In this document: piece after piece, positions 23,451 to 52,400 of the stretch
Layout: each line of letters starts with the position of its first letter
How positions within the stretch are numbered: position 1 is the stretch's first letter
Source: Paludibacteraceae bacterium
GTDB taxonomy: Bacteria; Bacteroidota; Bacteroidia; Bacteroidales; Paludibacteraceae
Assembly: GCA_024693065.1 (NCBI GenBank)
Contig: JAILLP010000004.1
Coordinates: 124,001-188,000, forward strand
Direction: 5' to 3'
DNA length: 64,000 bases
Notes under the pieces: model-generated
Databases searched by the model: none
Told to the model about the DNA's origin: nothing
What the model saw: the letters and a program-made list of their open reading frames with translations, nothing else
Position numbers and translations under genes: made by a program

Positions 23451-24089
23451 ATGACGGTCTCCGAACGGTATGCGAAGGTGCTCGCATGGTTCCAAGCGAA
23501 CATGCGGGATGCGGAGAGCGAACTGAACTTCCGGAACCCTTACGAATTACTGGTGGCGGTGATGCTTTCCGCCCAGTGCACGGACAAGCGGGTGAACATG
23601 GTCACCCCCGCCTTCTTTGAACGTTTCCCGGATGCTTTCGCCTTGTCGGAAGGCACGTTTGACGAGGTGTTGTCGTTGGTGAAGAGCATATCATACCCTA
23701 ATTCCAAGGCTGAACATATTTTGTCGATGGCAAAGATGGTCGTTTCCGACTTCAAGGGGGAGATCCCCTGCACGATGGAGGAGTTGACCCGCCTGCCGGG
23801 TGTGGGTCGGAAGACGGCCAATGTGATGTTGACTGTGGCCTTCGGTCAGCCCGCCATGCCTGTTGATACGCACGTCTTCCGTGTCTCCAACCGTATCGGG
23901 TTGACGAACCAATCCAAGACGCCGGAGCAGATCGAGAAGATCCTTGTGAAGCATATCCCGCATGATATCCTAGGCAACGCTCATCATTGGCTGCTGTTGC
24001 ACGGACGGTATGTCTGCACGGCCAAGAACCCCAAGTGCGCTGAATGTGGAATCAGGGAGTGGTGTAAGAGCAAGGGGAAATTCTCCTGA
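23451..24089 (+). CDS. nth: Endonuclease III
   Basis: A bifunctional DNA glycosylase/AP lyase that removes oxidised pyrimidines. The helix-hairpin-helix LPGVGRKTANVML is near residues 114-126, with the catalytic Lys in SAQCTDKRVN near 42 and the catalytic Asp in PVDTHVFR near 140. The C-terminal [4Fe-4S] ligands have the C-x6-C-x2-C-x5-C pattern (CTAKNPKCAECGIREWC). At 212 residues it has normal length. It shares a transcript with the phosphate transporter and ends in a terminator shared with rpoD. Confidence 0.97.
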   Translation: MTVSERYAKVLAWFQANMRDAESELNFRNPYELLVAVMLSAQCTDKRVNMVTPAFFERFPDAFALSEGTFDEVLSLVKSISYPNSKAEHILSMAKMVVSDFKGEIPCTMEELTRLPGVGRKTANVMLTVAFGQPAMPVDTHVFRVSNRIGLTNQSKTPEQIEKILVKHIPHDILGNAHHWLLLHGRYVCTAKNPKCAECGIREWCKSKGKFS

Positions 24090-24096
24090 AAAAAAT

Positions 24097-24130
24097 AAAC
24101 CCAGCAACCGGGAAGGCGCTGGGTTTTTAT
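24097..24130. terminator. Bidirectional terminator between nth and rpoD
   Basis: AAACCCAGC at 24097-24105 pairs with GCTGGGTTT at 24118-24126. An A-run lies on the left and a T-run on the right, so it can serve both converging genes. Confidence 0.9.
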
Positions 24131-24147
24131 TTGTCGTGAAATCTCTA

Positions 24148-25008
24148 TTATCCCAAATAAGACTTCAGCAATTTGCTTCTTGAATTTTGTCTGAGGCGGC
24201 GGATAGCCTTCTCCTTGATTTGGCGAACACGCTCGCGGGTCAGACCGAAGTTCTCACCGATCTCCTCGAGGGTCATCTCCTGATAACCGATACCGAAGAA
24301 CATCTTGATGATTTCGCTCTCCCTTTCCGTAAGGGTGGAGAGGGCTCTGTCGATCTCTCTGGACAAAGACTCGTTGATGAGGGTCTTGTCGGCGATAGGA
24401 GAATCGTCGTTCACCAGCACGTCCAAGAGACTGTTGTCCTCGCCCTCCACGAATGGAGCGTCCACGGAGATGTGACGGCCGGAGATCTTCATGGCGTCGG
24501 AGATCTTGTCCACCGGCATGTCCAAAAGTCCGGCCACCTCTTCGGTGGAAGGACGTCTCTCGTTCTCCTGCTCGAATTGTGAGAGCGCCTTGTTGATTTT
24601 ATTGAGTGAGCCCACCTGGTTGAGTGGCAGGCGGACGATTCTAGACTGTTCAGCCAATGCCTGAAGGATGGATTGGCGGATCCACCACACGGCGTACGAG
24701 ATGAACTTGAAACCCCTTGTCTCGTCGAATTTCTCGGCGGCTTTGATCAAACCCAGGTTACCCTCGTTGATGAGGTCAGGCAAACTCAATCCTTGGTTTT
24801 GGTACTGCTTAGCAACAGAAACCACGAAACGGAGGTTGGCGCGTGTCAGTTTCTCCAATGCGCGGCGGTCACCTTTCTTGATCCTTTGCGCTAACTCGAC
24901 TTCCTCCTCGACGGTGATCAGGTCTTCACGTCCGATTTCCTGAAGGTACTTGTCCAGGGAGGCACTCTCTCTGTTCGTGATTGATTTTGTAATCTTTAAC
25001 TGTCTCAT
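24148..25008 (-). CDS. rpoD: Primary RNA polymerase sigma factor RpoD (short Bacteroidota type)
   Basis: The housekeeping sigma factor, 286 residues, lacking the long region 1.1 of proteobacterial sigma-70, as in Bacteroides. Region 1.2 starts at [16 protein letters not shown] (17-32). Region 2 contains [14 protein letters not shown] and [13 protein letters not shown] (2.4). Region 4.2 is [29 protein letters not shown] near 243-271. It recognises TAnnTTTG promoters such as those listed here. Its own -7 box is at 25047-25054. Confidence 0.97.
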
Positions 25009-25046
25009 TTAGCTTTTCTCCTCACTTAAATGAAAATTTCGGAACG

Positions 25047-25054
25047 CAAAGATA
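25047..25054 (-). promoter_or_regulatory. -7 box TATCTTTG for rpoD
   Basis: Exact TAnnTTTG match on the minus strand, about 39 bases before the rpoD start. Confidence 0.65.
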
Positions 25055-25095
25055 CGAAAAAAAATGGATTGTTCATCTTTTGGAGGAGAAAATTT

Positions 25096-25141
25096 GGGGG
25101 ATTTACTATTTGACTATTTACGATTTACTATTTCCTATTTG
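25096..25141. repeat. AT-rich heptanucleotide tract at the 3' end of the ATPase gene
   Basis: Imperfect units of ATTTACT/ATTTGACT type run through the stop codon (25128) of the DUF4143 ATPase gene, so the last codons lie in simple repeat. Confidence 0.55.
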
Positions 25142-26477
25142 GTTGTTGGGGATTTACTGTGTAGCCATTGTTTTCGCTCATGATTTTTTCGAAATAGGGG
25201 GCTGTGGCGCAAAGGGGAATGTTTTCCATCCAATCTTGTTCGATGTGTTGTTTCATTGATATGCGTAGTCCTTTCCCTTCGTTCATGTGGTTGTCCACGA
25301 ATGTGTGTAGTGATTTGCTTTTCACGTTTTCCTCCGACTTAACTTCGACGGGGATGATCCGTCCCGCACATTGTAGGAGGAAGTCTATCTCCAGTTGTGA
25401 GTTGTCTTTGCTGAAGTAGTATGTGTTAACCCCGCTAATGGGCTTAAGTTGCTGTAATACATAGTTTTCCGAGAATGCTCCTTTGAATTCCGAGAAGACT
25501 TTGTTGCCGAGCAAGATGTCTTTGGGCTCGGTTTGAGACATGGCCGCAAGCAATCCCACGTCGAGCAGGTATATCTTGAATGCGGCATTGTCCACATAGA
25601 ATTTGAGGGGTAGTTCGGGCGCTTTGCATCGTTCCACCTTGTAGATGAGTCCGGCGTCTACGAGCCATTGCACCGCCATTTCGAATTGTGCCGCCCTTGC
25701 CCCTTTCTTTATGATCCCGAAAATGAATTTTTTGTTCTCTTTGGCCAATTGCGCAGGAATGCTTTCCCATACCTGATGTATGCGTTGTGCCTCTGTTTTG
25801 GTGTGTTTGCTGATGTCTCTGCTGTATGCGTCGATGATGTTCAACTGGATTTGCCTCGTTTTTTTTGTGTTTCCTGTTCGGATGAATTCACCGACCGCCT
25901 CAGGCATTCCCCCCGTGAAATAATATTCCCGTAGTCGGTTTTCCAAGTACTCTCGTTCTAACTCTATCGCGCGCCAGTCGTTTTCCCTGAGTGCGTTGAT
26001 TATCGCTGGTTTCCCGCAGGCTTTCAGATATTCCATGAAGGTCATCGGATACATGAACAGCATGTCTACTTTCCCGACAGGGAAACTTTCCCCTTGGTGC
26101 ATGGTTAATCCTAACAGAGAGCCTGCTACCGCTACGTGTAACCCCGGCTTGTCCTCGCAAAAATATTTTAGGGAAGCGATTCCGTTGTATACTTCTTGTA
26201 TCTCGTCGAAAATAAGTAGAGTTTTTCCTTCCTCGATATGTTTGTCTGTGTGTCTTTCGATGTCGGTGATAATCCTGTCTATGTCGAATGAACGGAATAT
26301 TGAGGCTGCGAATTCGTTGTTGTGGCAGTTGATGTATATACAGCTGTCGAATGCTTGCTGCCCAAATTGCTTGAGAATATATGTTTTTCCTACTTGCCTA
26401 GCGCCAAGTAGTATGAGTGGTTTCCTGTCTTCGCTTTCTTTCCACTGCAGTAATTCATTGTAAATGAGCCTCTCCAT
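25128..26477 (-). CDS. AAA-family ATPase with C-terminal DUF4143 (first copy)
   Basis: A 449-residue P-loop ATPase. Walker A is GARQVGKT near residues 25-32 and Walker B is LLIFDEIQE near 89. The C-terminal third has the DUF4143 arrangement: KIYLLDVGLLAAM, then an FSEFKGAFSENYVLQQL segment, then nuclease-like IDFLLQCAGRIIPVEVKSEENVKSKSL near 370-395, whose D-E-x-K layout recalls a PD-(D/E)xK fold. The start is the ATG at 26477; the longer frame needs a TTG. It is related to but distinct from the copy at 32.7-34.1 kb. The biological role of these ATPases is unclear. The promoter carries a five-unit tandem array. Confidence 0.88.
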   Translation of the reverse strand: MERLIYNELLQWKESEDRKPLILLGARQVGKTYILKQFGQQAFDSCIYINCHNNEFAASIFRSFDIDRIITDIERHTDKHIEEGKTLLIFDEIQEVYNGIASLKYFCEDKPGLHVAVAGSLLGLTMHQGESFPVGKVDMLFMYPMTFMEYLKACGKPAIINALRENDWRAIELEREYLENRLREYYFTGGMPEAVGEFIRTGNTKKTRQIQLNIIDAYSRDISKHTKTEAQRIHQVWESIPAQLAKENKKFIFGIIKKGARAAQFEMAVQWLVDAGLIYKVERCKAPELPLKFYVDNAAFKIYLLDVGLLAAMSQTEPKDILLGNKVFSEFKGAFSENYVLQQLKPISGVNTYYFSKDNSQLEIDFLLQCAGRIIPVEVKSEENVKSKSLHTFVDNHMNEGKGLRISMKQHIEQDWMENIPLCATAPYFEKIMSENNGYTVNPQQPNRK

Positions 26478-26503
26478 ATTCTTTCTTGTCAATTAATGCG
26501 ATG

Positions 26504-26511
26504 TAAAATTA
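26504..26511 (-). promoter_or_regulatory. -7-like box TAATTTTA for the first DUF4143 ATPase gene
   Basis: One-base variant of TAnnTTTG on the minus strand, 27 bases before the ATG. It overlaps the gene-proximal edge of the tandem array. Confidence 0.5.
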
Positions 26512-26656
26512 CACTTTTATGAGGGAATAAACAAAAAATATTACACTTTTATGATGGAATAATTTTGAAAACATACACTTTTATTAGGGAATGTTTGTGA
26601 AAAACTACACTTTTATGAGGGAATAATTTTAAAAAACTACATTTTTATGAGGGAAT
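26510..26656 (-). repeat. Tandem array, 5 units of exactly 32 bp, in the ATPase promoter
   Basis: The 19-base core TACACTTTTATGAGGGAAT (plus-strand reading, with one or two changes in some units) begins at 26510, 26542, 26574, 26606 and 26638, so the period is 32 bases each time. The 13-base spacers are AT-rich and variable. The array begins at the -7 box and runs about 150 bases upstream. Thirty-two bases is about three helical turns, so bound proteins would line up on one DNA face. It is too short and too regular in spacer composition to be a CRISPR. Confidence 0.9.
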
Positions 26657-26689
26657 GGCTGATGAAGGTCTTTTGCCATTGTGGTTTGA

Positions 26690-26960
26690 ATGTGCTCCAA
26701 TCCTTTTGCCCTTACAGGGCGCATGTTCGTGTGTTTGCGCATGACCCAGGGTGTTGCCCTGGGCTATATTATGGGGCTGGCCTTGCAGGCCGATAGGGCT
26801 GTGCGTTAATATTGCGGAATAAATGTTCCTGGATGCGATTCGGGACGGTTTTTGTGGCCTGAAGGGCCAATCTCTTTACATAGCCCAGGGCAACACCCTG
26901 GGATGAGGACGGATGATGAAAGTGCGCCCCCGGAGGGGGCAAAAGGTTTTCCCTGGTGTG
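26690..26960. repeat. Paired inverted REP-like elements (REPIN-like)
   Basis: The left half reads TTTTGCCC, AGGGCGCA, CCCAGGG-GTT-GCCCTGGG-CTAT (26745-26767) and then GGCCTTGCAGGCC. The right half carries the same modules in reverse order and complement: GGCCTGAAGGGCC near 26856, TAGCCCAGGGCAACACCCTGGG near 26881-26903 and GGGGGCAAAAGG near 26935. No gene is present. Members of the same family lie at 36.9, 48.6, 52.3, 53.9-54.2, 56.0 and 62.2 kb. Confidence 0.8.
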
Positions 26961-27206
26961 GTATAACGTGAATTTATTGATATTACATGATCTAAAATAT
27001 AGGTGGTGCGTTTTTTTATAAAGCTTCAATTATTTGAGTAATTAACCGAAAATTTATACATTTGTGCAGATGTAGATAAAGGTCACTTTTATGACTGATA
27101 TTTAATGTGCTTTAATTTAAGAGATTTAATAACTAAAAAAATTAAAAGAAGAAGAAAGTAGAATTTTTCTAACATATTAACTAACAAGCGTTTGCTTATT
27201 ATTCGG

Positions 27207-27360
27207 TAACTGCTCTGAAACCTCGAAAACTTTAGACTGATGTTACAACTCGAATAAGTCAAGTGGATGCCTGCGCTGTATGGCGTGGGCTTGACTTATC
27301 TGTTGTAACGGGCAGTTCGAGGGCCTCAGAGCGTGGATAATGTTGAGTCCACGTTTTTTT
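27207..27360 (+). ncRNA. Structured RNA with 6S-like rod fold
   Basis: A long interrupted hairpin can be drawn. GCTCTGA (27212-27218) pairs with TCAGAGC (27326-27332), CCTCGAA (27221-27227) with TTCGAGG (27316-27322), GTTACAAC (27242-27249) with GTTGTAAC (27302-27309), and ATAAGTCAAG (27254-27263) with CTTGACTTAT (27290-27299). An asymmetric central bubble (27232-27241 against 27310-27313) divides the closing and apical stems. A rod with a central bubble is the hallmark of 6S RNA, which binds RNA polymerase; the Bacteroidales-1 RNA motif is an alternative name to test. The unit is followed at once by a terminator, so it is probably an independent transcript. Confidence 0.6.
27332..27360 (+). 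terminator. Terminator of the structured RNA
   Basis: CGTGGA at 27332-27337 pairs with TCCACG at 27348-27353, followed by seven T. Confidence 0.85.
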
Positions 27361-27434
27361 GTGCCCCTACGAATTGCTCGTTTGCCGAAAAATGGTGAGG
27401 ATATTTATTGGGATTGATGTGCATCTACGTCCGT

Positions 27435-27458
27435 AGAGACGATGTGTACATTGTCTCT
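27435..27458. repeat. 24-base GAGACGATGT palindrome
   Basis: AGAGACGATGTG followed by its near-complement TACATTGTCTCT. Sister copies lie at 50299-50322, 56104-56125 and 62097-62118. It precedes the restriction operon and decides that the true start of that gene is downstream of it. Confidence 0.7.
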
Positions 27459-27509
27459 TATCAATCGTCCCCTCCGCAGATAGGTCAGGCGCGCAAATCA
27501 TCAGCGCAG

Positions 27510-28565
27510 ATGGTAGAACCGACAGACATTCCCGAGAATGACCTTCTCGCCTTGTCGCCCGATGTGCTGCGTGTATTGCTCAAGGATCATTCCGTCAGTC
27601 ATCACTTCAAGACGGAACGCAACATATTTTGGGCAACCGCAGACTATGAATCGTTGGGCGAGGGCTACGGTTATCTCGACCCCATAACCCCCGAACGCAT
27701 CACAGGCGAACGTGGCCTGCTGATTCAACCCCGTGCCAAGAAGAGTCGCGAGGTGCAGCAGCAACGCATTCAGGAGAAGGCGGAAGTCTTCACACCCGCT
27801 TGGATCTGCAACAAGCAAAACAACCTTGTGGATAGCGCATGGTTCGGACGAGAGAATGTCTTTAACACAGAAATCGACGACCATAACGGACACACATGGC
27901 AACCTATCGAAGAAAAAATCCAATTCCCCGACACCAAAGGCAAATCATGGGAGGAGTATGTATGTGCTCCGAGGCTCGAAGTGGCTTGCGGAGAAGCACC
28001 TTACCTCACAAGCCGTTACGATGCCGTTACGTGCGACGGTGTCATTCCCATCAAAAAACGCATCGGTCTGTTGGATCGTAAACTACGTATCGTGGGCGAG
28101 AACACCACTACGCCTGACGAATGGCTCGTCTGGGCCTTCAATGCCCTGCATGCCACCTATGGCTTCGAGTGGCAGGGCGATAATCTACTACTCGCCCGCG
28201 AGGCTGTGCTCTACACCTTTATGGAGCATTACGAAGAAAAATTCCACCAATCCATCGATAAAAAGACACTTGAGAACGCCGCCTATATCATCAGCTGGAA
28301 CCTCTGGCAGATGGACGGCGTGAAGTGCGTCGTGCCGCTGTCGTGCGAGTGGGCGGCACCCGAAGAACCCTCTCTTAGCCTTTTCGAAGACGAACCTAAA
28401 CGGATGGAATGCCCGGCTTGTAAAAAAGATACACAGACAGGGCATATCGGTATCCACTGCGAAGTGGTGGAGTGGCGCAAGGTCACAGAGAAGGAACCAC
28501 ACCGCACGGGGTCAAAACGCAACGTGTTCTATTACCCGAACATATCCATTCCTTTAAAAAGGTAA
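27510..28565 (+). CDS. DNA methyltransferase-like protein of the restriction operon (no NPPY motif)
   Basis: A 351-residue protein of the type often annotated as restriction endonuclease subunit M. EVFTPAWICNKQNNLVD near residues 91-107 resembles MTase motif X. LEVACGEAPYLTSRYD near 154-169 resembles the SAM-binding motif I. I find no NPPY/DPPY catalytic motif IV, so it may not methylate by itself. The C-terminus has a CxxC pair (ECPACKKD). The ATG at 27510 is chosen because the longer frame from 27408 reads through a dispersed palindrome. The next gene starts 44 bases downstream. Confidence 0.7.
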   Translation: MVEPTDIPENDLLALSPDVLRVLLKDHSVSHHFKTERNIFWATADYESLGEGYGYLDPITPERITGERGLLIQPRAKKSREVQQQRIQEKAEVFTPAWICNKQNNLVDSAWFGRENVFNTEIDDHNGHTWQPIEEKIQFPDTKGKSWEEYVCAPRLEVACGEAPYLTSRYDAVTCDGVIPIKKRIGLLDRKLRIVGENTTTPDEWLVWAFNALHATYGFEWQGDNLLLAREAVLYTFMEHYEEKFHQSIDKKTLENAAYIISWNLWQMDGVKCVVPLSCEWAAPEEPSLSLFEDEPKRMECPACKKDTQTGHIGIHCEVVEWRKVTEKEPHRTGSKRNVFYYPNISIPLKR

Positions 28566-28609
28566 AATATCCAACATATTGAATAATAGATAATTAGAAC
28601 TACTTTACC

Positions 28610-31600
28610 ATGGAATACACAGCAACATTCAAGAACAGTCTGATTTACATTTTCCGCATCAACGATGCGAAGCATGCGAAATGTTTAAAAATCGGTGAGG
28701 CAACCGCCCCCGATGGACTGACTTTCGTTCCCAACTGCAAGGAACTCAACGAAGCCGCTAAAAAACGTATTGATTCATATACGAAGACAGCTGGCGTACA
28801 GTATGAGTTATTGCACACCGAGATGACCACTTACAGCAAAGGTGGTAAAATCATGGGGTTCAATGACAAGCAGGTTCATGACGTCCTGTTACGTTCAGGC
28901 ATCAAGAAAGAAAAGTTTGGTACAAACGCTGATGAGTGGTTTCGTTGCGACCTTGAAACGGCAAAGAATGCTATTGCGGCCGTGAAGAACGGGCAAACCA
29001 GCCTAACTCCCGACCAAAAGTCGGAAGGTAAATCACCAGTGGCATTCCGTCCTGAACAATTGAAAGCCATCGAGCAGACGAAAAAGGTGCTGAAGAATGG
29101 TGACAAAATGCTATGGAACGCCAAGATGCGTATGGGTAAGACGCTCACCTCGCTCGAAGTGGTGAGACAAATGGGCTTCCATCGAACCATCATCGTCACA
29201 CACCGTCCCGTGGTGGATGAGGGTTGGTATGAGGATTACAACAAAATATTTTATGTGGAAAGCGACAAATGGCTATATGGCTCGAAAAACAGAGGTGTGA
29301 ACAACATCAAAAAACTCGAACAATCCGGCAAGAAATATATTTATTTCGCCTCCATGCAAGACCTTCGTGGGTCAAAATTGGTGGGCGGCAATTTCGATAA
29401 GAATGAAGAGGTTTTCAGCATTGATTGGGACCTACTCATCATCGACGAGGCGCACGAAGGCACGCAAACCGAGTTGGGCAAACGGGTGTTCGAGACACTG
29501 GATACGGAGCACACGAAGGTGCTGAACCTTTCGGGAACGCCTTTCAACCTGCTTGAATCGGGCGATTTTGACGAGACCAACACCTTCACATGGGACTATG
29601 TGATGGAACAGCGCGCCAAACAAGAGTGGGCTGTCAGTCACCCCGGTGACCATAACCCATACGAGGAACTGCCGAAACTTAATATCCTGACATTCAACCT
29701 CGGAGACCTCGCCGTCCATTATCAGGACGAGGACAAGGCCTTCAACTTCACAGAGTTTTTCAAGACGGACGATAAAGGCCAATTCGTCTATAAAAAGGAT
29801 ATCGCCAACTTCCTCGACATCATCTCATCGAACAAGGGCGAAACGCTCTATCCGTTCAGTAGTGCCGAATACCGTGAATTCTTCCACCACACCTTTTGGA
29901 TTGTGCCGGGTGTGAAAGAGGGGAAGGCATTGGCGGAGATGTTGCGCACGCACAGCGTGTTTGGCTCGTACAAAGTGGTGAACGTATGCGGCAACGAGGA
30001 CGAGGAGACCACGGGCGATCCGTTGGAAGAGGTGCGCAGTGCCATAGGCGACCATCCAGAAGACACCTACACCATCACCCTCTCGTGTGGCAAGCTCACC
30101 ACAGGTGTCACTGTACGTGAGTGGACAGCGGTGCTCTATTTGGCAGGTAGCAAAAACACTTCGCCGGCATCGTATATGCAGACCATCTTCCGTGTACAGA
30201 GCCCCGGCCGGATAGGGGGACGTATGAAGACAGATTGCTATGTTTTTGATTTCGCACCCGACCGCACTTTGAAGATGGTGGCTGAAACGGCTAAGGTATC
30301 TGCCAAAGCCGGAGAGACGGGTCAAGAGGATAAAATAATCCTTGGAAACTTCCTCAACTTCTGTCCGATTATCTCCTACGACGGAACAGAAATGAAGCCA
30401 TACAACGTAGATCAGATGATGCAACAGCTCAAAAGAGTCTATGTGGACAGAGTGGTGAATTCAGGCTTCGAGGATGGACATCTTTACAGCAAAAAACTAT
30501 ATGACCTGAGCGATGTGGAACTTGAAAGATTCGCTGACCTTCGAGAAATCATTGGTCAGACTAAGGCCAACAAGCAATCCAAGGACATTAAAATCAACAA
30601 CCAGAAATTCGATAAGGAGGATATAGAAAAGGCAAAACGGGAGGCAAAGAAAAGTGGCAAACAAATCACGCAAGAGGAGTTAGAGCAGATGGCGGAGCAA
30701 CTAAAGAAACGCCGCCAAAGGGATATTGCAGTCTCTATTTTGCGAGGAATCTCCATCCGTATGCCTCTTTTACTTTTTGGTGCTAAGCTCGACAACGAGG
30801 AGGAAGATATTTCGCTCGACCGCTTTGTGGAGTTGGTGGACGATCAGTCATGGGCAGAGTTCATGCCGCTCGGCGTCAGCAAAGACAAGTTCGCAGCCTA
30901 TAAGAAATATTACGATGAGGACATCTTTTCGGCTGCAGGAAGACAGATTCGCCAACTTGCCCTTGCGGCGGACAAAATGCCTATATTACAACGCATTCAA
31001 CATATTACGCAGATCTTCGAATCATTCCGCAATCCAGATAAGGAGACCGTATTAACCCCATGGCGGGTGGTGAACATGCACCTATCGGACACTGTAGGTG
31101 GATATTGTTTTTACAATGATGGATTTGAAACGGTTGCCACAGAACCGCACATGGTGGACCGTGGCATTGTGACGCAACGCCTATTCGAAAACGCCAACGT
31201 GCGAATTTTAGAAATTAACTCCAAATCAGGACTTTATCCGTTGTACATGGCCTATAGTATTTTCCGTCATCGTCTACGTGTCATGAAAGAGGGCAAACGC
31301 TCATTGTTCAAGGAGGTTAGCCTCGAAGAGGAACAGTATGTATGGCGTGAGGTATTAGCGGAGAACATATTCATCATTTGCAAGACCGAGATGGCGCGTT
31401 GTATCACACAACGCACTCTTGCCGGTTTCACAGGAGCTAAAGTTAACACCCATGTATATGACGATCTTCTGAATCAAATCACCAACAAACAACCCGAATT
31501 TATTAAACGTCTGCTTTCGGGCAGCATTTTTTCTCAAATAAAAAACAATATGAAATTTGACGCTATAGTAGGAAATCCTCCGTATCAGGTAAACGATGGA

Positions 31601-32587
31601 AGTGGAGCTTCGAGTGATGCCGCAATGCCTGTGTATAACAAATTTGTAGATGTAGCACGACAAATAAAACCTCAATATCTAACTTTGATTATGCCATCAA
31701 AATGGATGATAGGAGGACGTGGTTTACAAAAATTCCGCGAAGATTTTATGAACGATAGGCACATTGAACTTTTGTTTGATTACGAAGATTCATCCGAATG
31801 CTTTACTAATCAACATATTGACGGTGGAATATGCTACTTCCGTTGGAATAAGGATTATAATGGAATGGTTGATTATTCATATAAGGACGCTAGCGGTCAA
31901 ATAAAACGAAGCAAGCGCTTTTTGAAAGATAAAAATACAAATATTGTCATTCGTGACATTCAGCGTATTTCCTTGATCAACAAGGTTTCTAATGAAAAAT
32001 CGTTTGCTGATATAGTGTCTTCTACTCAACCATTTGGAATTAGGAAAGATTTGTTCAATAATCCAGAGAAATATATCAATGTAAAAACCGCAGATGTTCA
32101 ATTCAAAGATTCGGTTGAAATTTGGGGTGTTAAAGGAATAAAAGGAGGTGCAAGACGTACAAGTTGTTTTATTGAAAATAAAGCTGTCACAAAGAATAGG
32201 GAATGGATTACGAAGAATAAAATACTATTTACAACTTCATATTCTACAAATGCAACAGTACCACCAGAACCTATTTTGGCAGGGCCAAATGTTATAGGAA
32301 CAGAGACATTCCTTGTGATAGGTCCTTATGAAACTGCCGAAGAAATGAACAATTGCAATAAGTACATTAGAACAAAGTTTTTCCGATTGTATTTGTATTT
32401 CGGTAAAGGAACAATGCAAGTATCAAAAGAAGTCTTCCAATTTGCTCCATTACAGGACTTCACAGAAAAATCAGATATCGACTGGAGCAAAAGCATCAAG
32501 GAGATAGATGAGCAGTTGTACAAGAAGTATGGATTGACGGAAGAGGAGGTGAAGTTTGTGGAAGGAATGGTGAAGGAGATGGAGTAA
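28610..32587 (+). CDS. Single-polypeptide restriction enzyme: GIY-YIG-like nuclease, SF2 helicase, Eco57I-type adenine methylase
   Basis: A 1325-residue fusion. Residues 10-125 resemble a T5orf172/GIY-YIG-type nuclease (LIYIFRIN, KCLKIGEAT, DEWFRC). The helicase follows: RPEQLKAIEQT near 145, Walker A AKMRMGKT near 171-178, LIIDEAHEG near 275, LNLSGTPFNL near 305 and a second RecA domain to about 560. The methylase part has a motif-X-like TPWRVVNMHLSD near 820, a degenerate motif I (ILEINSKSGLYP near 866) and motif IV IVGNPPYQ near 985-992, typical of N6-adenine methylases. The rest (about 1000-1310) should be target recognition. The layout recalls type ISP/IIG systems. Base composition falls sharply in AT-rich direction from about 31.5 kb, covering motif IV and recognition. 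Confidence 0.85.
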   Translation: MEYTATFKNSLIYIFRINDAKHAKCLKIGEATAPDGLTFVPNCKELNEAAKKRIDSYTKTAGVQYELLHTEMTTYSKGGKIMGFNDKQVHDVLLRSGIKKEKFGTNADEWFRCDLETAKNAIAAVKNGQTSLTPDQKSEGKSPVAFRPEQLKAIEQTKKVLKNGDKMLWNAKMRMGKTLTSLEVVRQMGFHRTIIVTHRPVVDEGWYEDYNKIFYVESDKWLYGSKNRGVNNIKKLEQSGKKYIYFASMQDLRGSKLVGGNFDKNEEVFSIDWDLLIIDEAHEGTQTELGKRVFETLDTEHTKVLNLSGTPFNLLESGDFDETNTFTWDYVMEQRAKQEWAVSHPGDHNPYEELPKLNILTFNLGDLAVHYQDEDKAFNFTEFFKTDDKGQFVYKKDIANFLDIISSNKGETLYPFSSAEYREFFHHTFWIVPGVKEGKALAEMLRTHSVFGSYKVVNVCGNEDEETTGDPLEEVRSAIGDHPEDTYTITLSCGKLTTGVTVREWTAVLYLAGSKNTSPASYMQTIFRVQSPGRIGGRMKTDCYVFDFAPDRTLKMVAETAKVSAKAGETGQEDKIILGNFLNFCPIISYDGTEMKPYNVDQMMQQLKRVYVDRVVNSGFEDGHLYSKKLYDLSDVELERFADLREIIGQTKANKQSKDIKINNQKFDKEDIEKAKREAKKSGKQITQEELEQMAEQLKKRRQRDIAVSILRGISIRMPLLLFGAKLDNEEEDISLDRFVELVDDQSWAEFMPLGVSKDKFAAYKKYYDEDIFSAAGRQIRQLALAADKMPILQRIQHITQIFESFRNPDKETVLTPWRVVNMHLSDTVGGYCFYNDGFETVATEPHMVDRGIVTQRLFENANVRILEINSKSGLYPLYMAYSIFRHRLRVMKEGKRSLFKEVSLEEEQYVWREVLAENIFIICKTEMARCITQRTLAGFTGAKVNTHVYDDLLNQITNKQPEFIKRLLSGSIFSQIKNNMKFDAIVGNPPYQVNDGSGASSDAAMPVYNKFVDVARQIKPQYLTLIMPSKWMIGGRGLQKFREDFMNDRHIELLFDYEDSSECFTNQHIDGGICYFRWNKDYNGMVDYSYKDASGQIKRSKRFLKDKNTNIVIRDIQRISLINKVSNEKSFADIVSSTQPFGIRKDLFNNPEKYINVKTADVQFKDSVEIWGVKGIKGGARRTSCFIENKAVTKNREWITKNKILFTTSYSTNATVPPEPILAGPNVIGTETFLVIGPYETAEEMNNCNKYIRTKFFRLYLYFGKGTMQVSKEVFQFAPLQDFTEKSDIDWSKSIKEIDEQLYKKYGLTEEEVKFVEGMVKEME

Positions 32588-32729
32588 GGTTTTCTTTTTT
32601 TCAACATGAGGATGTATTAAAATTCAATTTTTGATACACCCTCTTTGTGAGGGCTTCGTTGTTACATATTTGCCCGTGACGAACCATGGGGAATATATAT
32701 TTCCATCCTTCTTTCATACACTTCATGTA

Positions 32730-34079
32730 TTATGAACAGTTGTCACTTATTATTGGCAACATATATACGGGAAGTAAAATGGTCTCCGCATCGAACCGCA
32801 AGTCTTTTGTATAAGCAAGGTACCGATTGGCGATGCGTGATGAGAACTTGAGGCAGAAGGCATCCAGCGAGGCATGTGTTTTGTAGCCGGACGACTTCAC
32901 CTCTATGGGGCATATCTTATTGCCTTTCGACAACAGGAAGTCAACCTCGTAATAATGTTTCTCATCCTTTGGGAACGTGTGGTAAAACAATTCGTTGCCT
33001 GCCGTAGCGAGCATCTGCGCCACGAGGTTTTCATACACATACCCTAAATTAGCTTCCAACTTGTCACTCAACAATTTATCGTAAATCACATTGTCCGTAT
33101 AACGTTTGTCCCAAAAACATAATGTGACAAACAATCCCGTGTCTGCCAAAAACAACTTGTAGCGGTTCATGTCCTTGCTCAATGACATACCCACATTGGG
33201 GTCTGTACAGTGATGACAAAACAGAACTGTTTTGCTCTGCTCCAGATCCTGAAGCAACTCGGCCATTTTGGTCTCCGTTTGCTGTCCGACCACTGGATAT
33301 GGCTGATAACGAGAAGCATTGCTGCTCAATTGCGCCGGAATGTTTTTAAAAAGCCGTTCTGCATTCCCCGTGGCGTCAATCTTCTGAAAGTCTTCCAAGT
33401 ACAATTTTATAATTCCTCGCTTGGTTTTATCAACCAAACTCAAATTATTAGTGTCCAAATAAGTATTTACGGCTTGTGGCATTCCTCCCACCAACATATA
33501 GAGTCTTAAATCCCTCATTTTCAAACGCGCCGCAGCATCACCCATCGACAGTTTCATTTCAAACTGTTGCCTAAGCAGAGGAATAGTGGCAGTATCGCCC
33601 AACGCCCAACGAAATTCCTCAAAGTCCATTGGATACATCGTTATGCGGTCCTCCTCACTGGGTATAGTGATGTCTTTGGTGTTTTTGCGAATGCTAATGA
33701 GCGATCCTGTTTCAATGTAATCGTAGCGTCCGTCTTGCACTAAGTACTTAATGGCCTGGCGGGCTTTCGGGCATTTCTGCACCTCGTCGAAAATTATGAC
33801 AGACTTGCGCTTGTGCAACACCACTTGGTGTGCTTGTTGCAGTTTGAAGAAAATCATATTCAAATCGCTCAAGTCATCCCATAGTGCAATTGACTCCTTG
33901 CCGGCTTTGTTGAAGTCTATGAGAATGTAGGATTCGTATTCCTGCTTGGCAAAAAGTTCCACAACCGTTGACTTTCCAACACGTCGTGCACCTTCTACCA
34001 ATACGGCTGTCCGTCCATCCTCAGACCGTTTCCAGTCCAATAATCGTTGATATATTTTTCTCTTGAAAATTCTATCCAT
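32730..34079 (-). CDS. AAA-family ATPase with C-terminal DUF4143 (second copy)
   Basis: A 449-residue P-loop ATPase. Walker A is EGARRVGKSTVV near residues 26-37 and Walker B VIIFDEVQKCP near 92. Sensor-like SLISIRKNTKD follows. The DUF4143 part includes YKLFLADTGLFVTL, LGYVYENLVAQML and the nuclease-like block YEVDFLLSKGNKICPIEVKSSGYK near 398-420. The ATG at 34079 is preferred because the -7 box at 34103-34110 leaves almost no leader for the ATG at 34091. It lies convergent to the restriction operon. It shares architecture but limited sequence with the copy at 25-26.5 kb, and its promoter also carries a tandem array. Confidence 0.88.
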   Translation of the reverse strand: MDRIFKRKIYQRLLDWKRSEDGRTAVLVEGARRVGKSTVVELFAKQEYESYILIDFNKAGKESIALWDDLSDLNMIFFKLQQAHQVVLHKRKSVIIFDEVQKCPKARQAIKYLVQDGRYDYIETGSLISIRKNTKDITIPSEEDRITMYPMDFEEFRWALGDTATIPLLRQQFEMKLSMGDAAARLKMRDLRLYMLVGGMPQAVNTYLDTNNLSLVDKTKRGIIKLYLEDFQKIDATGNAERLFKNIPAQLSSNASRYQPYPVVGQQTETKMAELLQDLEQSKTVLFCHHCTDPNVGMSLSKDMNRYKLFLADTGLFVTLCFWDKRYTDNVIYDKLLSDKLEANLGYVYENLVAQMLATAGNELFYHTFPKDEKHYYEVDFLLSKGNKICPIEVKSSGYKTHASLDAFCLKFSSRIANRYLAYTKDLRFDAETILLPVYMLPIISDNCS

Positions 34080-34102
34080 GCTAATTCCCATTTAATCAGT
34101 AA

Positions 34103-34110
34103 CAAATATA
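34103..34110 (-). promoter_or_regulatory. -7 box TATATTTG for the second DUF4143 ATPase gene
   Basis: Exact TAnnTTTG match on the minus strand, 24 bases before the chosen ATG, with a tandem array starting 16 bases further upstream. Confidence 0.6.
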
Positions 34111-34125
34111 GCATATTTTCACGTG

Positions 34126-34210
34126 TCCCGCAATTATATTTATCCAAAATTCATAGTTTCCCGCAAATTTATTTTGGCAAAATTCGTTGTTTCCCGCAAA
34201 TTTAAAAAAG
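34126..34210 (-). repeat. Tandem array, 3 units of exactly 33 bp, in the second ATPase promoter
   Basis: TCCCGCAA (plus-strand reading) begins at 34126, 34159 and 34192, a period of 33 bases. The second and third units share TTTCCCGCAAATTTA, and the first two units share AAAATTC at the same internal position. Placement relative to the -7 box mirrors the 32-bp array of the other ATPase gene, but the core sequence is different. Confidence 0.85.
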
Positions 34211-34406
34211 AAACATTATTGCGCATGGTACAGTGTGATCAGGCTTTGCTTTTCCTTCAGACATTTTCCCGCCATTCCTCACAGTATTGGGCCGCTTTCA
34301 GCAATCTCGTCAGTCGGTTCCTCTAGGCTGGTCAACCTATATTTGTTTATTTCTTCTTCCGACATAATTTTAGTTCTTGCTGATTATGCAAGTACAAATA
34401 TAGGAA

Positions 34407-34450
34407 TTTAAGAATTAAGAATTAAGCGTTAGGAGTTAAGAATTAATTAA
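34407..34450. repeat. TTAAGAA heptanucleotide repeat
   Basis: Tandem units of TTAAGAA/TTAAGCG/TTAGGAG. The same heptamer recurs at 48.5, 48.79, 52.36-52.40 and 54.29-54.34 kb. Confidence 0.7.
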
Positions 34451-34518
34451 AAGTCATCGAAAAGGTGAAACTGTCGGGTTAGCCTTGCCACCCGACTACA
34501 TTCTTTCTGCGAATCGAT

Positions 34519-34549
34519 TGGATTTTACAAGAAAACGATGTATCTTTGT
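34519..34549 (+). promoter_or_regulatory. Promoter of the radical SAM operon (TTG-N20-TATCTTTG)
   Basis: TTG at 34519-34521 and TATCTTTG at 34542-34549 are 20 bases apart, the best-spaced Bacteroidota promoter in the window. It leaves a leader of about 175 bases before the first ATG; a small hairpin (34474-34480 with 34491-34497) lies upstream of it. Confidence 0.65.
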
Positions 34550-34732
34550 ACGATGTTCATAAACTCGATTGGACATGATTGCTGGTGATTCGTGTTTACA
34601 TTATGGGGGAATGAATTGAGAGAATAGGGGTAGAATGGCACAATCCGGTAGAGTCACCATGGGGTAATTAATGCGCAATTTGTGTTTTGACTTCGGTTGA
34701 AATTAACTTATGTGTTTTAAAAAATTGTTGTT

Positions 34733-35533
34733 ATGAAGAAAATTTCACTACAAGCAAGATCAATTATCAGAAGAGCCATCGTCTCTTTGTTGTCGTCTAT
34801 GGGTTTTATCACCGTGCATGGACAAGCGACGGGGAAAGAGGTGGATAGGAGTAGCCGTATAAATGACTTTGAAACTGTGGAGGAGTATAATCCTGAAAGA
34901 GATTTAATTGCGCTTTACGGATGTCCTTCCGCGGATTTCAGGTTCAGAGGTAATGTCACGGACAAGTACGGCAACCCGCTGAAAGATGTGAGTGTGCAAG
35001 TCACTCATTGCCGGAACGGCGCATTCCCGCCTGTGATGACGGACGAGGATGGAAATTTTGTGTTTGAATATAAGACAGCTCCATGGTGCGATATTAGGAT
35101 ATCGGCTACGAATGACATATCTTCCGCTTGTGACACTATCCTGGAAGAACAGTACGAAAAAGAGTTCGTTATGCCTGAGAATCCGAACGGTGATCCGTTT
35201 TACCGTGGCGTATATGATAAAGAAATGACCATCGTCCTTGGGGATGAGGGAGAGACTGGCCACATCATATTCGGTCGCCCGACGGGCGTGGAGGATGGAG
35301 TGGCGGAGAAGATCCTTCTGTTCTCTAATCCGGTGGAGAATTATTTGTGGTTCAACTTGACAGGTGTGGAAAGCGCCAATGTCACCATCTATAATCTGAG
35401 CGGCGAACAGGTGTTGACCGCCTCTGTCCCGAACGGAGAGAGCCTTTACGTGGGCAATCTGAAGAGCGGAAATTACTTGTTGACCGTCGTCTCAGGAGAT
35501 AAGAAACTGGCTGCCCGTTTCTTGAAGAAATAG
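34733..35533 (+). CDS. Radical SAM-associated secreted protein with T9SS type A sorting domain
   Basis: A 266-residue secreted protein. LYGCPSADFRFRGNVTDKYG near residues 60-79 and the following beta-sandwich match the family of putative lipoproteins that pairs with a radical SAM enzyme (TIGR04134-type, from memory). Four Cys follow the signal region (near residues 62, 88, 113, 126). Unlike that family, the signal region (ends near HGQ) has no lipobox Cys. Residues 195-266 look like a T9SS type A sorting domain: ILLFSNPVENYLWFN, VTIYNLSGEQVLTA, LKSGNYLLTV. The radical SAM gene starts 154 bases downstream. It is probably the modified substrate. Confidence 0.75.
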   Translation: MKKISLQARSIIRRAIVSLLSSMGFITVHGQATGKEVDRSSRINDFETVEEYNPERDLIALYGCPSADFRFRGNVTDKYGNPLKDVSVQVTHCRNGAFPPVMTDEDGNFVFEYKTAPWCDIRISATNDISSACDTILEEQYEKEFVMPENPNGDPFYRGVYDKEMTIVLGDEGETGHIIFGRPTGVEDGVAEKILLFSNPVENYLWFNLTGVESANVTIYNLSGEQVLTASVPNGESLYVGNLKSGNYLLTVVSGDKKLAARFLKK

Positions 35534-35687
35534 TGCGGCACATCTCCTTTTGAGAGCTTATTTTGTATGTTTAATAAAACGTCGAATTATTAGCACGTAC
35601 CATCGCATCAGTCACCCGAACCTTTGGATGACTGATGTTTTTTTGCCATGAAGGCAGTTAGGTGGGGTGGCTGGTTAAATAAAAAGA

Positions 35688-36779
35688 GTGGATATGGATA
35701 ATCCGAAAAAGATTCCATTGAAGAAGAGACTCGCTTTCAGGTTGTTCGATATGTATCGGCATAGTGTGGCGAAGGATCATAAACTGACCTATATTTTCTG
35801 GGAATGCACGCTGCGTTGCACGTTGAACTGCCTGCATTGCGGTAGTGATTGCCGGCAGATGTCCGACATCAAAGATATGCCTGTGGAGGATTTCCTCAAG
35901 GCCATCAAACAGATCGTCCCTATTGTTGAGCCGAACCATACCCAGATCGTCTTCACGGGCGGGGAGGCTCTCGTCCGCAAGGACCTGGAGCAGGCCGGAA
36001 TTGAGTTGTACAAGCTCGGTTTCCCTTGGGGCATCGTCACCAACGGCTATCTGCTGACGGAAGAACGGCTGGAATCCCTGCTCCGGGCGGGTATGCGCTC
36101 GTGCACGGTCAGCCTTGACGGACTGAAGGATTCGCACAACTGGCTGCGGCAAAACGACCTCTCCTATGACCGTGCCGTCAACGCTATCAGGATGCTCCCG
36201 CGGACGGACCTCAAGTTTGATGTGCTGACGTGCGTCAACAACCGGAACTTCGATGAACTCCCTCAAATCAAGCAGTTGCTGATCGATTGTGGCGTGAGGA
36301 ATTGGAGGGTCGCGACGATCTTCCCTATCGGACGGGCCGCGGATAATCCGGGGCTGCAGTTGCCTGACGATAAATTCAAGGCGGTCTTCGATTTTATCGA
36401 GGAGACGAGGAAGGAGGGGAAGATAAGGGCTAACTACGGTTGCGAAGGTTTCCTGGGCGATTATGAAAGCCGTGTCAGGGACAACATGTTCTTCTGCCGG
36501 GCTGGAATCAATATAGGCTCCATCCTTGTGGATGGAAGCATATCCGCCTGCCCTGACCTGCGGGACCGTTTTATCCAAGGTAACATCTATACGGACAATT
36601 TCGCGGAGGTGTGGCAAAACCGATACCAGATCATGAGAGACCGTTCGTGGACAAAGACGGGTATCTGCAAGGATTGTGAATTCTTCAGCCATTGCGAAGG
36701 AAACGGACTGCATCTTCGGAACACGGAGACCAACGAGGTCGCATTTTGCCACCTGAAAAGGATGACGGGAGGAAAGTAG
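35688..36779 (+). CDS. Radical SAM/SPASM enzyme of the rSAM/lipoprotein system (TIGR04133-like)
   Basis: A 363-residue radical SAM enzyme. The cluster motif CTLNCLHC (C-x3-C-x2-C) is near residues 44-51, with a preceding extra Cys pair region (ECTLRC). GGEALVRKDL near 88 is the GGE SAM-binding motif. The C-terminal SPASM domain holds Cys near 265, 284, 325, 328, 334 and 350 for two auxiliary clusters (e.g. ICKDCEFFSHCEGNG). Such enzymes usually modify peptides or proteins post-translationally. The partner gene directly upstream is the likely substrate. It matches TIGR04133 from memory. Confidence 0.85.
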   Translation: MDMDNPKKIPLKKRLAFRLFDMYRHSVAKDHKLTYIFWECTLRCTLNCLHCGSDCRQMSDIKDMPVEDFLKAIKQIVPIVEPNHTQIVFTGGEALVRKDLEQAGIELYKLGFPWGIVTNGYLLTEERLESLLRAGMRSCTVSLDGLKDSHNWLRQNDLSYDRAVNAIRMLPRTDLKFDVLTCVNNRNFDELPQIKQLLIDCGVRNWRVATIFPIGRAADNPGLQLPDDKFKAVFDFIEETRKEGKIRANYGCEGFLGDYESRVRDNMFFCRAGINIGSILVDGSISACPDLRDRFIQGNIYTDNFAEVWQNRYQIMRDRSWTKTGICKDCEFFSHCEGNGLHLRNTETNEVAFCHLKRMTGGK

Positions 36780-50647: not shown

Positions 50648-52243
50648 CTATTCCACGGTGCGAATTTCTTCCACCCTTTTGACCTCATTTGTTGGGACGT
50701 TGGGGCAATTATCGAACATACCCAAGATATAATCAAAGGGGTTTTCCTCCGCAGGTATTTTGGGAAGTACGGGCGGTTGAGACAGATGGGTGCAGTTCGC
50801 GAACATGTAGTGGTAGCATTCTTCTGCCAGTTCCGTGGCGGGTAGTTGTGGGGCTTGGATCAGGCTGGCGCAACCTTCGAACATGGATCTGTAGCAAGTC
50901 GGGGCTAATTTTTTTGCGGGTAATTGCGGGGCTTGCGTCAATTTAGAACATCCACTGAACATCTCGGCGTAGCACTTCTTTTTTAGTTGTGTGGCGGGCA
51001 GTTGCGGTGCCTTAGTCAGGTTGGCGCAATTCGCGAACATGGAACGATAGCAATCAGATGCCAGGGTCTGAGCGGGCAGTTGCGGGGCCTGCATCAGTTG
51101 AGTGCAGTTCTCGAACATGGATTTGTAACATAATTCAGTCATTTCTGTGGCGGGCAGTTGCGGTGCCTTTTTGAGGCTGGTACATCCGCTGAACATGCCT
51201 TGGTAGCACCAACCTGCTAATTGGGTGGCGGGTAGATCGGGCGCTTCTGTTAATCTTTCACAACCAGCGAACATTTCTCCGTAGCATCCTTCGGTTAATG
51301 TGGTGGCGGGTAATGCAGGCGCTTTCTCCAATTTCGTACATTCGTAAAACATATACATGTAGCATCCTTCTTCCAGCGTTGTGGCGGGCAGTTTTGGCGC
51401 TTGTGTGAGGCTGGCGCAACCGCTGAACATGAATTCGTAGCATCCTATCGTCAGTGTTGTGGCGGGCAGTTCGGGTGCTTGCGCCAGAATGGTGCAATCC
51501 TCAAACATTGTACTGTAGCAGTCGGTGGCCAACGCTTTGGCGGGCAGTTCAGGCGCTTGCGTCAGACTGTGGCATCGCCTGAACATCGCGGTGTAGCAAC
51601 TGTCAGCCATGGAGGTGGCGGGGAGTTCGGGGGCTTGCGTCAGGCTGGCGCAATCAGAGAACATCCGCAAGTAGCATTTCCTGCTCAGTTCGATGGCAGG
51701 TAGTCGCGGCGCTTGTGTGAGACCGGTGCAACCTTCGAACATCCATGCGTAACAACCCTCGGTAGTCTTTAGGGCAGGCAGTTCGGGTGCCTGTGTCAGA
51801 CTGGTGCAGTTTAAGAACAGACTGTTGAAGCAGTAGTTGCTCGGCATTTCCGTCGCTTTCCCTTTCCCGTCGATCAGGCTCATCACGCTACCGCTGGCGG
51901 CGATGGATCCTCTCATGATGAATGTGGTGTAGCTTTTTTCTCCTTTCGAGAACCCTTCGGGATTTATGCCTTTCAGCAACACTTTGCTCTCCTTACCCGC
52001 TAAGGGAATGAGAACCTTCTCCTCTAATTTTGTCCATGTGCTTCCACCATCCATTGAGTAATGAATATCCGTGATGTTGCCTATGTTCCTGATGCCGAAG
52101 GCGGATCCATTCGTTTTTGCCGTGAAGGTGAGGTAGTTCTCCTTCGAACCGTTGTTGTCCGGTGTGCTTCTCATCGCCATGACGGTGGAGAAGCATAGAA
52201 TCGACATAAATGTCAGCACTGTTTTTTTTATGGTTATTGTCAT
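50648..52243 (-). CDS. LRR-like surface protein, paralogue 3 (14 repeats, aberrant C-terminus)
   Basis: A 531-residue secreted protein (signal MTITIKKTVLTFMSILCFSTVMA). The head begins ENYLTFTAKTNGSAFGIRN and includes GSIAASGSVMSLIDGKGKA. Fourteen 26-residue repeats follow, the most of any paralogue. The end differs from its relatives: after CTHLSQPPVLPKIPAEENPFDYI it stops at EEIRTVE, without the GTFICPK...GWKVIKN cap. No TAnnTTTG box is seen directly upstream, so it may depend on another promoter or be silent. The longer frame from 52276 is possible but spoils the signal peptide. Confidence 0.8.
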   Translation of the reverse strand: MTITIKKTVLTFMSILCFSTVMAMRSTPDNNGSKENYLTFTAKTNGSAFGIRNIGNITDIHYSMDGGSTWTKLEEKVLIPLAGKESKVLLKGINPEGFSKGEKSYTTFIMRGSIAASGSVMSLIDGKGKATEMPSNYCFNSLFLNCTSLTQAPELPALKTTEGCYAWMFEGCTGLTQAPRLPAIELSRKCYLRMFSDCASLTQAPELPATSMADSCYTAMFRRCHSLTQAPELPAKALATDCYSTMFEDCTILAQAPELPATTLTIGCYEFMFSGCASLTQAPKLPATTLEEGCYMYMFYECTKLEKAPALPATTLTEGCYGEMFAGCERLTEAPDLPATQLAGWCYQGMFSGCTSLKKAPQLPATEMTELCYKSMFENCTQLMQAPQLPAQTLASDCYRSMFANCANLTKAPQLPATQLKKKCYAEMFSGCSKLTQAPQLPAKKLAPTCYRSMFEGCASLIQAPQLPATELAEECYHYMFANCTHLSQPPVLPKIPAEENPFDYILGMFDNCPNVPTNEVKRVEEIRTVE

Positions 52244-52279
52244 GCCTATTTGTTGATTGATAAGTTTTTGACGCATTTT

Positions 52280-52400
52280 ATAATTCCCCAGAGCGTTGCC
52301 CCGGGCTATGTTTGTATAGGCCCTTCAGGCTTATAAGGCGCTGTTCCCGACGAATCCTTAATCCTTAACTCTTAACTCTTAATTCTTAATTCTTAATTAC
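52280..52400. repeat. REP-like palindrome plus TTAAGAA heptamer tract
   Basis: CCCCAGAGCGTTGCCCCGGGCTATG near 52287 is REP-like, followed by GGCCCTTCAGGC. From 52357 heptamers (CTTAATC, CTTAACT, CTTAATT) run through the stop of paralogue 4 at 52386. Confidence 0.75.

Follow-up and report, generated by a model that had tools for sequence, protein, structure and literature searches.

Promoter repeat arrays of paralogous DUF4143 ATPase genes change together with the proteins and may serve as private, self-addressed operators

We identified, in a 64,000-nucleotide stretch of the genome of a Paludibacteraceae bacterium (at its full length referred to as the window), two DUF4143 ATPase genes that each have their own array of direct repeats upstream. 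The repeated word differs between the two genes and, among related genes, it changes together with the protein sequence. The reading that we favor, and regard as rather probable from comparisons of proteins and upstream regions, is that each ATPase binds a private operator array in front of its own gene and represses itself.

The first gene, L010, encodes a protein in which both Pfam domains score above the curated cut-off: AAA_14 (E-value 3.1e-24, 85.9 vs 27 bits) and DUF4143 (E-value 4.8e-17, 62.6 vs 28.1 bits). A sequence-only reading of the window had placed the word TCCCGCAA upstream of this gene at 34126, 34159 and 34192, next to a promoter box CAAATATA. The word was found exactly at these three positions, and the box was found as well; along the gene strand it reads TATATTTG and we take it to be the -7 box of a Bacteroidota promoter. 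The proposed array of three copies at 33 bp is real, as none of 2000 dinucleotide-preserving shuffles of the 200-bp upstream region equaled its score or contained an 8-mer in three identical copies with a 33-bp step. Tandem Repeats Finder (TRF) reported a period of 33 with 2.4 copies and a score of 109. On the gene strand two copies read AATTTGCGGGAAAC, and the promoter-proximal third copy has diverged to AATTGCGGGACAC; it lies 21 bp, as counted, from the -7 box and extends into the expected -33 region. A 14-mer of the L010 repeat has two exact matches in the genome, both inside its own array, and three isolated one-mismatch sites elsewhere. At up to two mismatches there are 43 matches compared to 14 for the reversed control, and no second cluster was seen in the genome list. 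No Rfam match above the gathering score was found in window positions 24000-36000, and a CRISPR or structured RNA was rejected on this ground. Further upstream, at 34386-34446, there are AT-rich 7-mer runs (TTAAGAA) with many short DNA matches in the same and related genomes.

The reading had counted L010 as one of two cases, and the second, L002, is also real, with five copies at 32 bp upstream of a DUF4143 ATPase gene (Table 1). With up to one mismatch, the 18-bp L002 core has only five matches in its own genome, which are the five array copies. The same pattern gave 24 matches in 16 genomes of the genus, all of them within a single array in each of six genomes, and its reversed version gave none in the same 16 genomes. 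The idea that the array marks a genome-wide regulon was rejected for L002, as the core is found only in arrays.

Table 1. Features of the L010 and L002 genes and their upstream regions (window positions)
Feature	Coordinates	Strand	Basis
L010: AAA_14 ATPase + winged helix + DUF4143 (PD-(D/E)XK-like), 453 aa, PDC-S01	32730..34091	-	
PD-(D/E)XK site of L010, codons 384-399 with D384, E397, K399, conserved	32895..32942	-	
Hypervariable hairpin turn of DUF4143, codons 374-379, proposed reader of core 1	32955..32972	-	covariation and model
N-terminal end of winged helix-turn-helix recognition helix (H273-285), codons 266-276, proposed reader of core 2	33264..33296	-	
Presumed -7 box of L010, TATATTTG	34103..34110	-	position; preferred array distances of the subfamily
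Repeat copy 3 of L010, promoter-proximal, diverged, reaching the expected -33 region	34123..34138	-	gapless copy
Repeat copy 2 of L010, core AATTTGCGGGAAAC	34156..34171	-	gapless copy
Repeat copy 1 of L010, core AATTTGCGGGAAAC	34189..34204	-	gapless copy
Whole 33-bp array of L010	34126..34204	-	TRF and shuffles
L002: second DUF4143 ATPase of the window, same architecture as L010, 454 aa, PDC-S01	25128..26492	-	
Private array of L002, 5 x 32 bp, gene-strand core TTCCCTCATAAAAGTGTA	26505..26656	-	TRF

Upstream regions of related genes were compared with those of other genes. At least three copies with a score of 4 or more were present in 92 of the 161 ATPase upstream regions and in 5 of 230 control upstream regions, 34 of which are from the window and 196 from the surroundings of named relatives. 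The relatives are part of the matches listed, taken best-scoring first; loci without a recognized gene or start were skipped, and among the 165 genes of the repeat scan (161 in the control comparison) the L005 gene is counted a second time, as a truncated reading in locus L013. Two subfamilies were followed in genomes of the family, the relatives of L010 (first subfamily, 107 usable genes) and those of L002 (second subfamily, 98 genes, with ten earlier loci included). An array score of 44 was passed by 89/107 and 82/98 genes, respectively, and by none of 321 shuffled first-subfamily upstream regions. One of the 89 passing genes (L131) was judged spurious and removed, and a divergent clade, L158 (misaligned) and L098 were left out of the remaining 88, giving a discovery set of 76 genes. 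L098 was left out because its best array is distant and has the code of another clade. About 60-190 bp upstream of L098, near boxes GTATTTGATATAAT are followed farther out by copies of that other code, TTTTGCGCTCAGGG, possibly reflecting a replaced array. For the second subfamily, 75 of the 82 genes also passed the motif score. A new set of 127 genes was drawn from a search across the order, contigs of named genomes and additional stretches; 32 were dropped for being at least 90% identical, and 68 of the 95 left passed the array and motif thresholds (test set). Test genes are less than 90% identical to the earlier genes and to each other, and because the discovery set contains a relative of about 65-85% identity for most of them, agreement between the sets is replication in other genes and not in other lineages.

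The arrays are regular in both subfamilies. The scorer for the second subfamily favors 32 and 33 bp and that for the first 33 bp, and both scan only 31-35 bp; an open scan of 16-60 bp also gave mostly 32-33 bp. Among aligned genes the spacing was 33 bp in 148 of 157 first-subfamily intervals, and 179 of the 180 second-subfamily intervals measured 33 or 32 bp. Identity between copies of first-subfamily arrays peaks at 0.98 in the box and is approximately 0.4 at the box edges, within-array values that are biased upward since array windows were chosen for similarity. The spacers differ between array copies, so the copies do not resemble fresh duplications. The first-subfamily box consists of AAAATTT followed by a variable core 1 and a variable core 2, and the second-subfamily box of a variable half and a nearly constant half, AAAA[AG]TGT[AG].

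The window's genome contains 14 DUF4143 ATPase genes. Upstream repeats scored above all 20 shuffles of the same region for 13 of them, the exception being L007, and 10 of the 14 upstream regions contain at least three copies with a score of 4 or more; scores were modest for L003 (4), L011 (4), L012 (3) and L014 (4). By eye the repeated word differs from paralogue to paralogue. The proposal that each ATPase has its own cognate repeat is supported, with corrections: private cores exist and change together with the protein, but L007 is arrayless and only two of 27 genes in one phylum-wide subfamily sample had arrays. That sample consists of genes closest to L001, for which at least three copies were found in 7/29 genes within the family; the corresponding counts are 4/12 for genes closest to L003 and 5/5 for genes closest to L005. 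All of these samples are led by the best-scoring DUF4143 matches. The array is a trait of some DUF4143 subfamilies and is rare in one large subfamily. By eye, the upstream regions of L003, L012 and L014 resemble small groups of palindromic boxes more than arrays with a 33-bp step.

The position of the arrays relative to the promoter was examined using the motif TAnnTTTG. In the first subfamily it occurs at or after the last copy in 68/76 genes, with none in the other 8/76. The distance from the last core 1 to the motif was 20-22 bp in 15 genes and 52-55 bp in 35 genes, with 18 scattered (n = 68). Hence 50/68 arrays are at one of two preferred distances, and these two classes are one repeat period apart. 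In the second subfamily the motif overlaps a copy in 30/75 genes, which is no excess over a mean of 26.3 with shifted arrays; 24 of the 30 overlaps fall at one column, where the TA is supplied by TGTA of the constant half.

If the ATPases read their own repeats, residues that determine specificity should co-vary with the repeat core, as the sequence-only reading had proposed. Such an analysis was carried out, and the cores indeed change with the protein, most strongly at two hypervariable elements; tests based on trees or matched pairs gave a much weaker signal. Among the 76 discovery genes (effective number 49), residue 375 and motif column 11 gave the top coupling between a residue and a base, and the same pair was again at the top in the test set of 68 other genes. 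Over the 144 genes, K375 occurs with G in 56 genes, C in 7, A in 1 and an undetermined base in 1, R375 with G in 6/6 and D375 with C in 15/17. T375 goes with A (18), C (9), G (6) or T (1), and S375 with C (4) or G (4). L010 itself has K375 and a G at column 11.

The coupling is concentrated in two blocks of the protein, each with its own half of the box. Coupling of the hairpin (374-379) with core 1 was matched by 0/424 other residue windows, and that of the end of the recognition helix (266-276) with core 2 by 0/409 residue windows, in the discovery, test and combined sets alike. These two regions were picked after the discovery set had been seen. The A/T columns 3-8 that adjoin core 1 are also coupled to the hairpin, with 0, 7 and 3 of 424 residue windows as high in the three sets. 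The crossed combinations were weaker: 171, 27 and 203 of 424 residue windows were as high as the hairpin with core 2, and 32, 236 and 136 of 409 as high as the helix with core 1. In the second subfamily, coupling of the homologous hairpin with the variable half was matched by 0/406 residue windows. For the helix of this subfamily, which was placed by sequence, 374/394 residue windows were as high with the variable half and 24/394 with the constant half. The first-subfamily helix is hypervariable, with 2.4-3.7 bits at 270-277 against a protein mean of 1.2, while residues 259-262 of the second-subfamily helix are conserved (0.1-0.6 bit vs a protein mean of 1.6) and residues 263, 264 and 267 vary. 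The weak coupling of the second-subfamily helix fits these conserved residues together with the nearly constant DNA half AAAARTGTR. Taken with both subfamilies, the covariation argues for sequence-specific self-recognition by these ATPases, which we consider well supported.

Other candidate readers were also considered. The loop after the E-x-K motif was rejected as a third reader. It was equaled by 5/403 residue windows in the second subfamily, but in the first by 405, 298 and 320 of 421. C107 was also rejected; its pair with column 11 is high in both sets but its block is not clean (20, 44 and 37 of 427 residue windows as high). For residues 79-90 and core 1, 17, 40 and 14 of 406 residue windows were as high, and the value was also high in the first permutation; a coupling of this region to core 1 is suggestive.

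The L010 protein was modeled with AlphaFold together with 61 relatives from named contigs (pLDDT 90, pTM 0.90). In the model, the turn 375-379 connects strands 368-374 and 380-383, shortly before D384, and by our own reading of the order of helices and strands the winged helix spans roughly 243-295, with a helix at 273-285. Among solved structures, no sequence relatives of L010 were found at E <= 1. The putative nuclease residues are conserved, with D384 in 144/144, E397 in 143/144 and K399 in 144/144 genes of the L010 subfamily and D365 in 72/75, E378 in 74/75 and K380 in 73/75 of the second subfamily; the predicted nuclease site of the L010 subfamily is probably functional. L010 and L002 match the PADLOC models of PDC-S01 over nearly their full length (3.4e-92 over residues 9-448 and 2.8e-170 over residues 6-432, respectively).

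In the mechanism that we propose, each ATPase would be a sequence-specific DNA binder, with the private operator array of its own promoter as the main target. A single bipartite box of approximately 20 bp would be occupied by one protomer, with the recognition helix of the winged helix reading one half and the hypervariable DUF4143 hairpin reading the other, about one helical turn away. Steps of 32-33 bp, which are about three turns, would place the protomers on one face of the DNA and in register with the promoter. An occupied array would then block RNA polymerase and repress the gene, with the ATP state perhaps acting as the switch, and distinct codes would prevent cross-regulation among the dozen paralogues of a cell. 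Autorepression would be the simplest use of an operator that is in register with the promoter. An intact nuclease site in an autorepressor sits awkwardly with this explanation and is left unexplained by it. Also counting against it are the weak tests based on trees or matched pairs, the scarcity of arrays in one large DUF4143 subfamily, the two arrays that lack a close ATPase and, in the second subfamily, the partly variable helix and a motif overlap that does not exceed that of shifted arrays.

A second explanation accepts self-recognition but sees in the array a sink or self-mark by which an otherwise active nuclease-ATPase is kept inactive on the DNA, or is licensed, with control of transcription being secondary; release upon an attack on host DNA would then trigger defense. 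The near-complete conservation of the PD-(D/E)XK residues is in line with this, as are the hairpin that would track the DNA, which directly precedes D384, the status of PDC-S01 as a defense candidate and the presence of restriction-modification (R-M) genes in the same hotspot, where L010 and L002 flank an Eco57I-like R-M gene. On the other hand, the E-x-K motif has been lost, by eye, in 5/14 paralogues (L008 and L011-L014), and the upstream regions of these genes still have repeats above their shuffles. A sink also has no need of a promoter register. We consider this explanation unlikely.

A third explanation is that the covariation reflects shared descent only, and that the arrays serve another factor and drift with the lineage. 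In its favor, the tests that correct for ancestry were weak or noisy. The branch co-change test for residue 375 and column 11 gave 9 observed vs 4.3 expected events (z 2.5, rank 86/7464), and in the tree test residue 375 leads all residues when its best core 1 columns are summed. In the pair-matched test the same pair ranked 11/7523 overall and 18/7329 in the test set; in the full set, eight of the ten pairs ranked above it involve columns that are at least 90% conserved. The discovery and test sets have clades in common, their z-scores correlate at only 0.10 overall, and many discovery couplings outside the hairpin and helix blocks failed to repeat and should not be trusted. When arrays were swapped among close relatives in the test set, 0/1000 (helix) and 2/1000 (hairpin) shuffles reached the observed value. 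Residues elsewhere also slightly exceed this null, by approximately 5% (1/1000), compared to 18-20% for the hairpin and helix blocks. The signal thus exceeds what swaps among close relatives produce, and shared descent hardly accounts for a coupling that is concentrated in two hypervariable elements, half to half, in both sets, and that recurs for the hairpin in the second subfamily. Nor would another factor readily account for paralogues of a single genome each having a core of their own. We consider this explanation quite improbable.

The L002 locus lies in a variable hotspot, the comparison of which rests on draft assemblies. In one relative (L408:2865-4457) gene and array, corresponding to window positions 25104-26696, are inverted relative to the flanks, with approximately 310 bp missing alongside, and a fourth relative has other content between the same flanks. 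Two of the six L002-type arrays lack a close ATPase. At L405:16416-16509 a three-copy array adjoins a remnant of the 3' end of an ATPase gene that is otherwise mostly deleted. At L404:13357-13473 a four-copy array occupies the gap separating an hsdS-like from an hsdR-like gene and lies immediately upstream of the latter; by eye, the open reading frames are those of a type I R-M system. Among the 4/10 candidates scored in this genome, none was reported as a close L002 ATPase. The L404 array is possibly an operator that was left behind or borrowed. In the gap that separates the L002 array from its neighboring gene (window 26740-26910), an inverted pair, CCCAGGGTGTTGCCCTGGGC / CCCAGGGCAACACCCTGGG, was noted by eye. 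A repeat search of 33900-34500, near L010, gave short inverted pairs but none that bounds gene and array, and ends of a mobile element were recognized neither in this region nor, by eye, at the L002 inversion ends. The inversion, the two geneless arrays and the other content of the fourth relative could suggest that a mobile cassette uses the array for recognition or as its end (in recombination, homing or excision) and the ATPase as its mobility factor, which we think very improbable, as neither end point of the inversion falls within array or gene and no end repeats are visible there by eye, the copies differ in their spacers, unlike a transposed unit, and the array keeps its preferred distances to the -7 box.

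The proposed self-binding of the ATPases can be compared with several known systems. Orc1/Cdc6 proteins use an AAA+ domain and a winged helix on DNA boxes that are repeated, in many cases next to the genes encoding them, and to our knowledge they have no PD-(D/E)XK domain. The top Foldseek match of the L010 model in the PDB is archaeal Cdc6/Orc1 on origin DNA (2qby, E 8.7e-6), a resemblance with a low TM-score (0.30/0.35) and an rmsd of 12.4. Unlike those of Orc1/Cdc6, the arrays described here are at a promoter, and nothing examined suggests replication. Plasmid iteron-initiator systems have short, helically phased direct repeats beside the gene of the binding protein, which is autoregulated. 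Helically phased repeats that adjoin the gene of a putative binder are also a feature of the ATPases, but iterons differ in that many paralogues per genome have private codes here. RptR is reported to repress a defense island and to bind its own promoter at three direct repeats (PMC12255303). It thus has in common with the ATPases that a defense locus carries direct repeats at its promoter, and also autorepression, which is proposed for the ATPases. The RptR protein is described as a small homodimer encoded separately as a regulator, and its repeats of 9 bp have a single conserved site, TAGCTA (PMC12255303); by contrast, here the putative effector would itself be the binder, the boxes of approximately 20 bp recur every 32-33 bp, and the codes are specific to each paralogue.

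PDC-S01 is described, in the accessible parts of two reports, as a PADLOC candidate family of single-gene phage defense in which an ATPase is fused to PD-(D/E)XK (PMC12988326; PMC13356809). In those parts of the first report it is called the fourth most common defense system across prokaryotes, and most comparable systems are said to await validation (PMC12988326). The same accessible parts do not mention an operator array or a DNA-reading code for PDC-S01 (PMC12988326; PMC13356809), whose models L010 and L002 match. No report linking DUF4143 or PDC-S01 with promoter repeats was found among the literature matches listed, which come mostly from outside subscription journals and preprints.

If each copy reads its own promoter, this would be a first handle on the function of a PDC-S01 protein and would provide a ready set of natural protein-operator pairs, and the PD-(D/E)XK domain may then serve recognition besides cutting. 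Paralogous codes would be a natural experiment in the evolution of orthogonal regulators inside one genome, and an explicit code makes it testable why some bacteria carry a dozen or more such ATPases. More tentatively, a very common candidate defense gene could be, in at least two subfamilies, a self-addressed machine for reading DNA. Its nuclease domain might have become, or always have been, a base-reading module (K/R with G, D with C, T with A at one position), paired with a winged helix for the second half-site, and every copy in these subfamilies might have its own fast-diversifying promoter address, which would keep the many copies orthogonal. Each array would then set the level of its copy and hold or license a nuclease that is kept intact for another target.

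Elsewhere in the window, long tandem arrays of 69- and 78-bp repeats occur at 51359-53419 and 59353-61015; we presume, as a guess, that they resemble the repeats of leucine-rich surface proteins.
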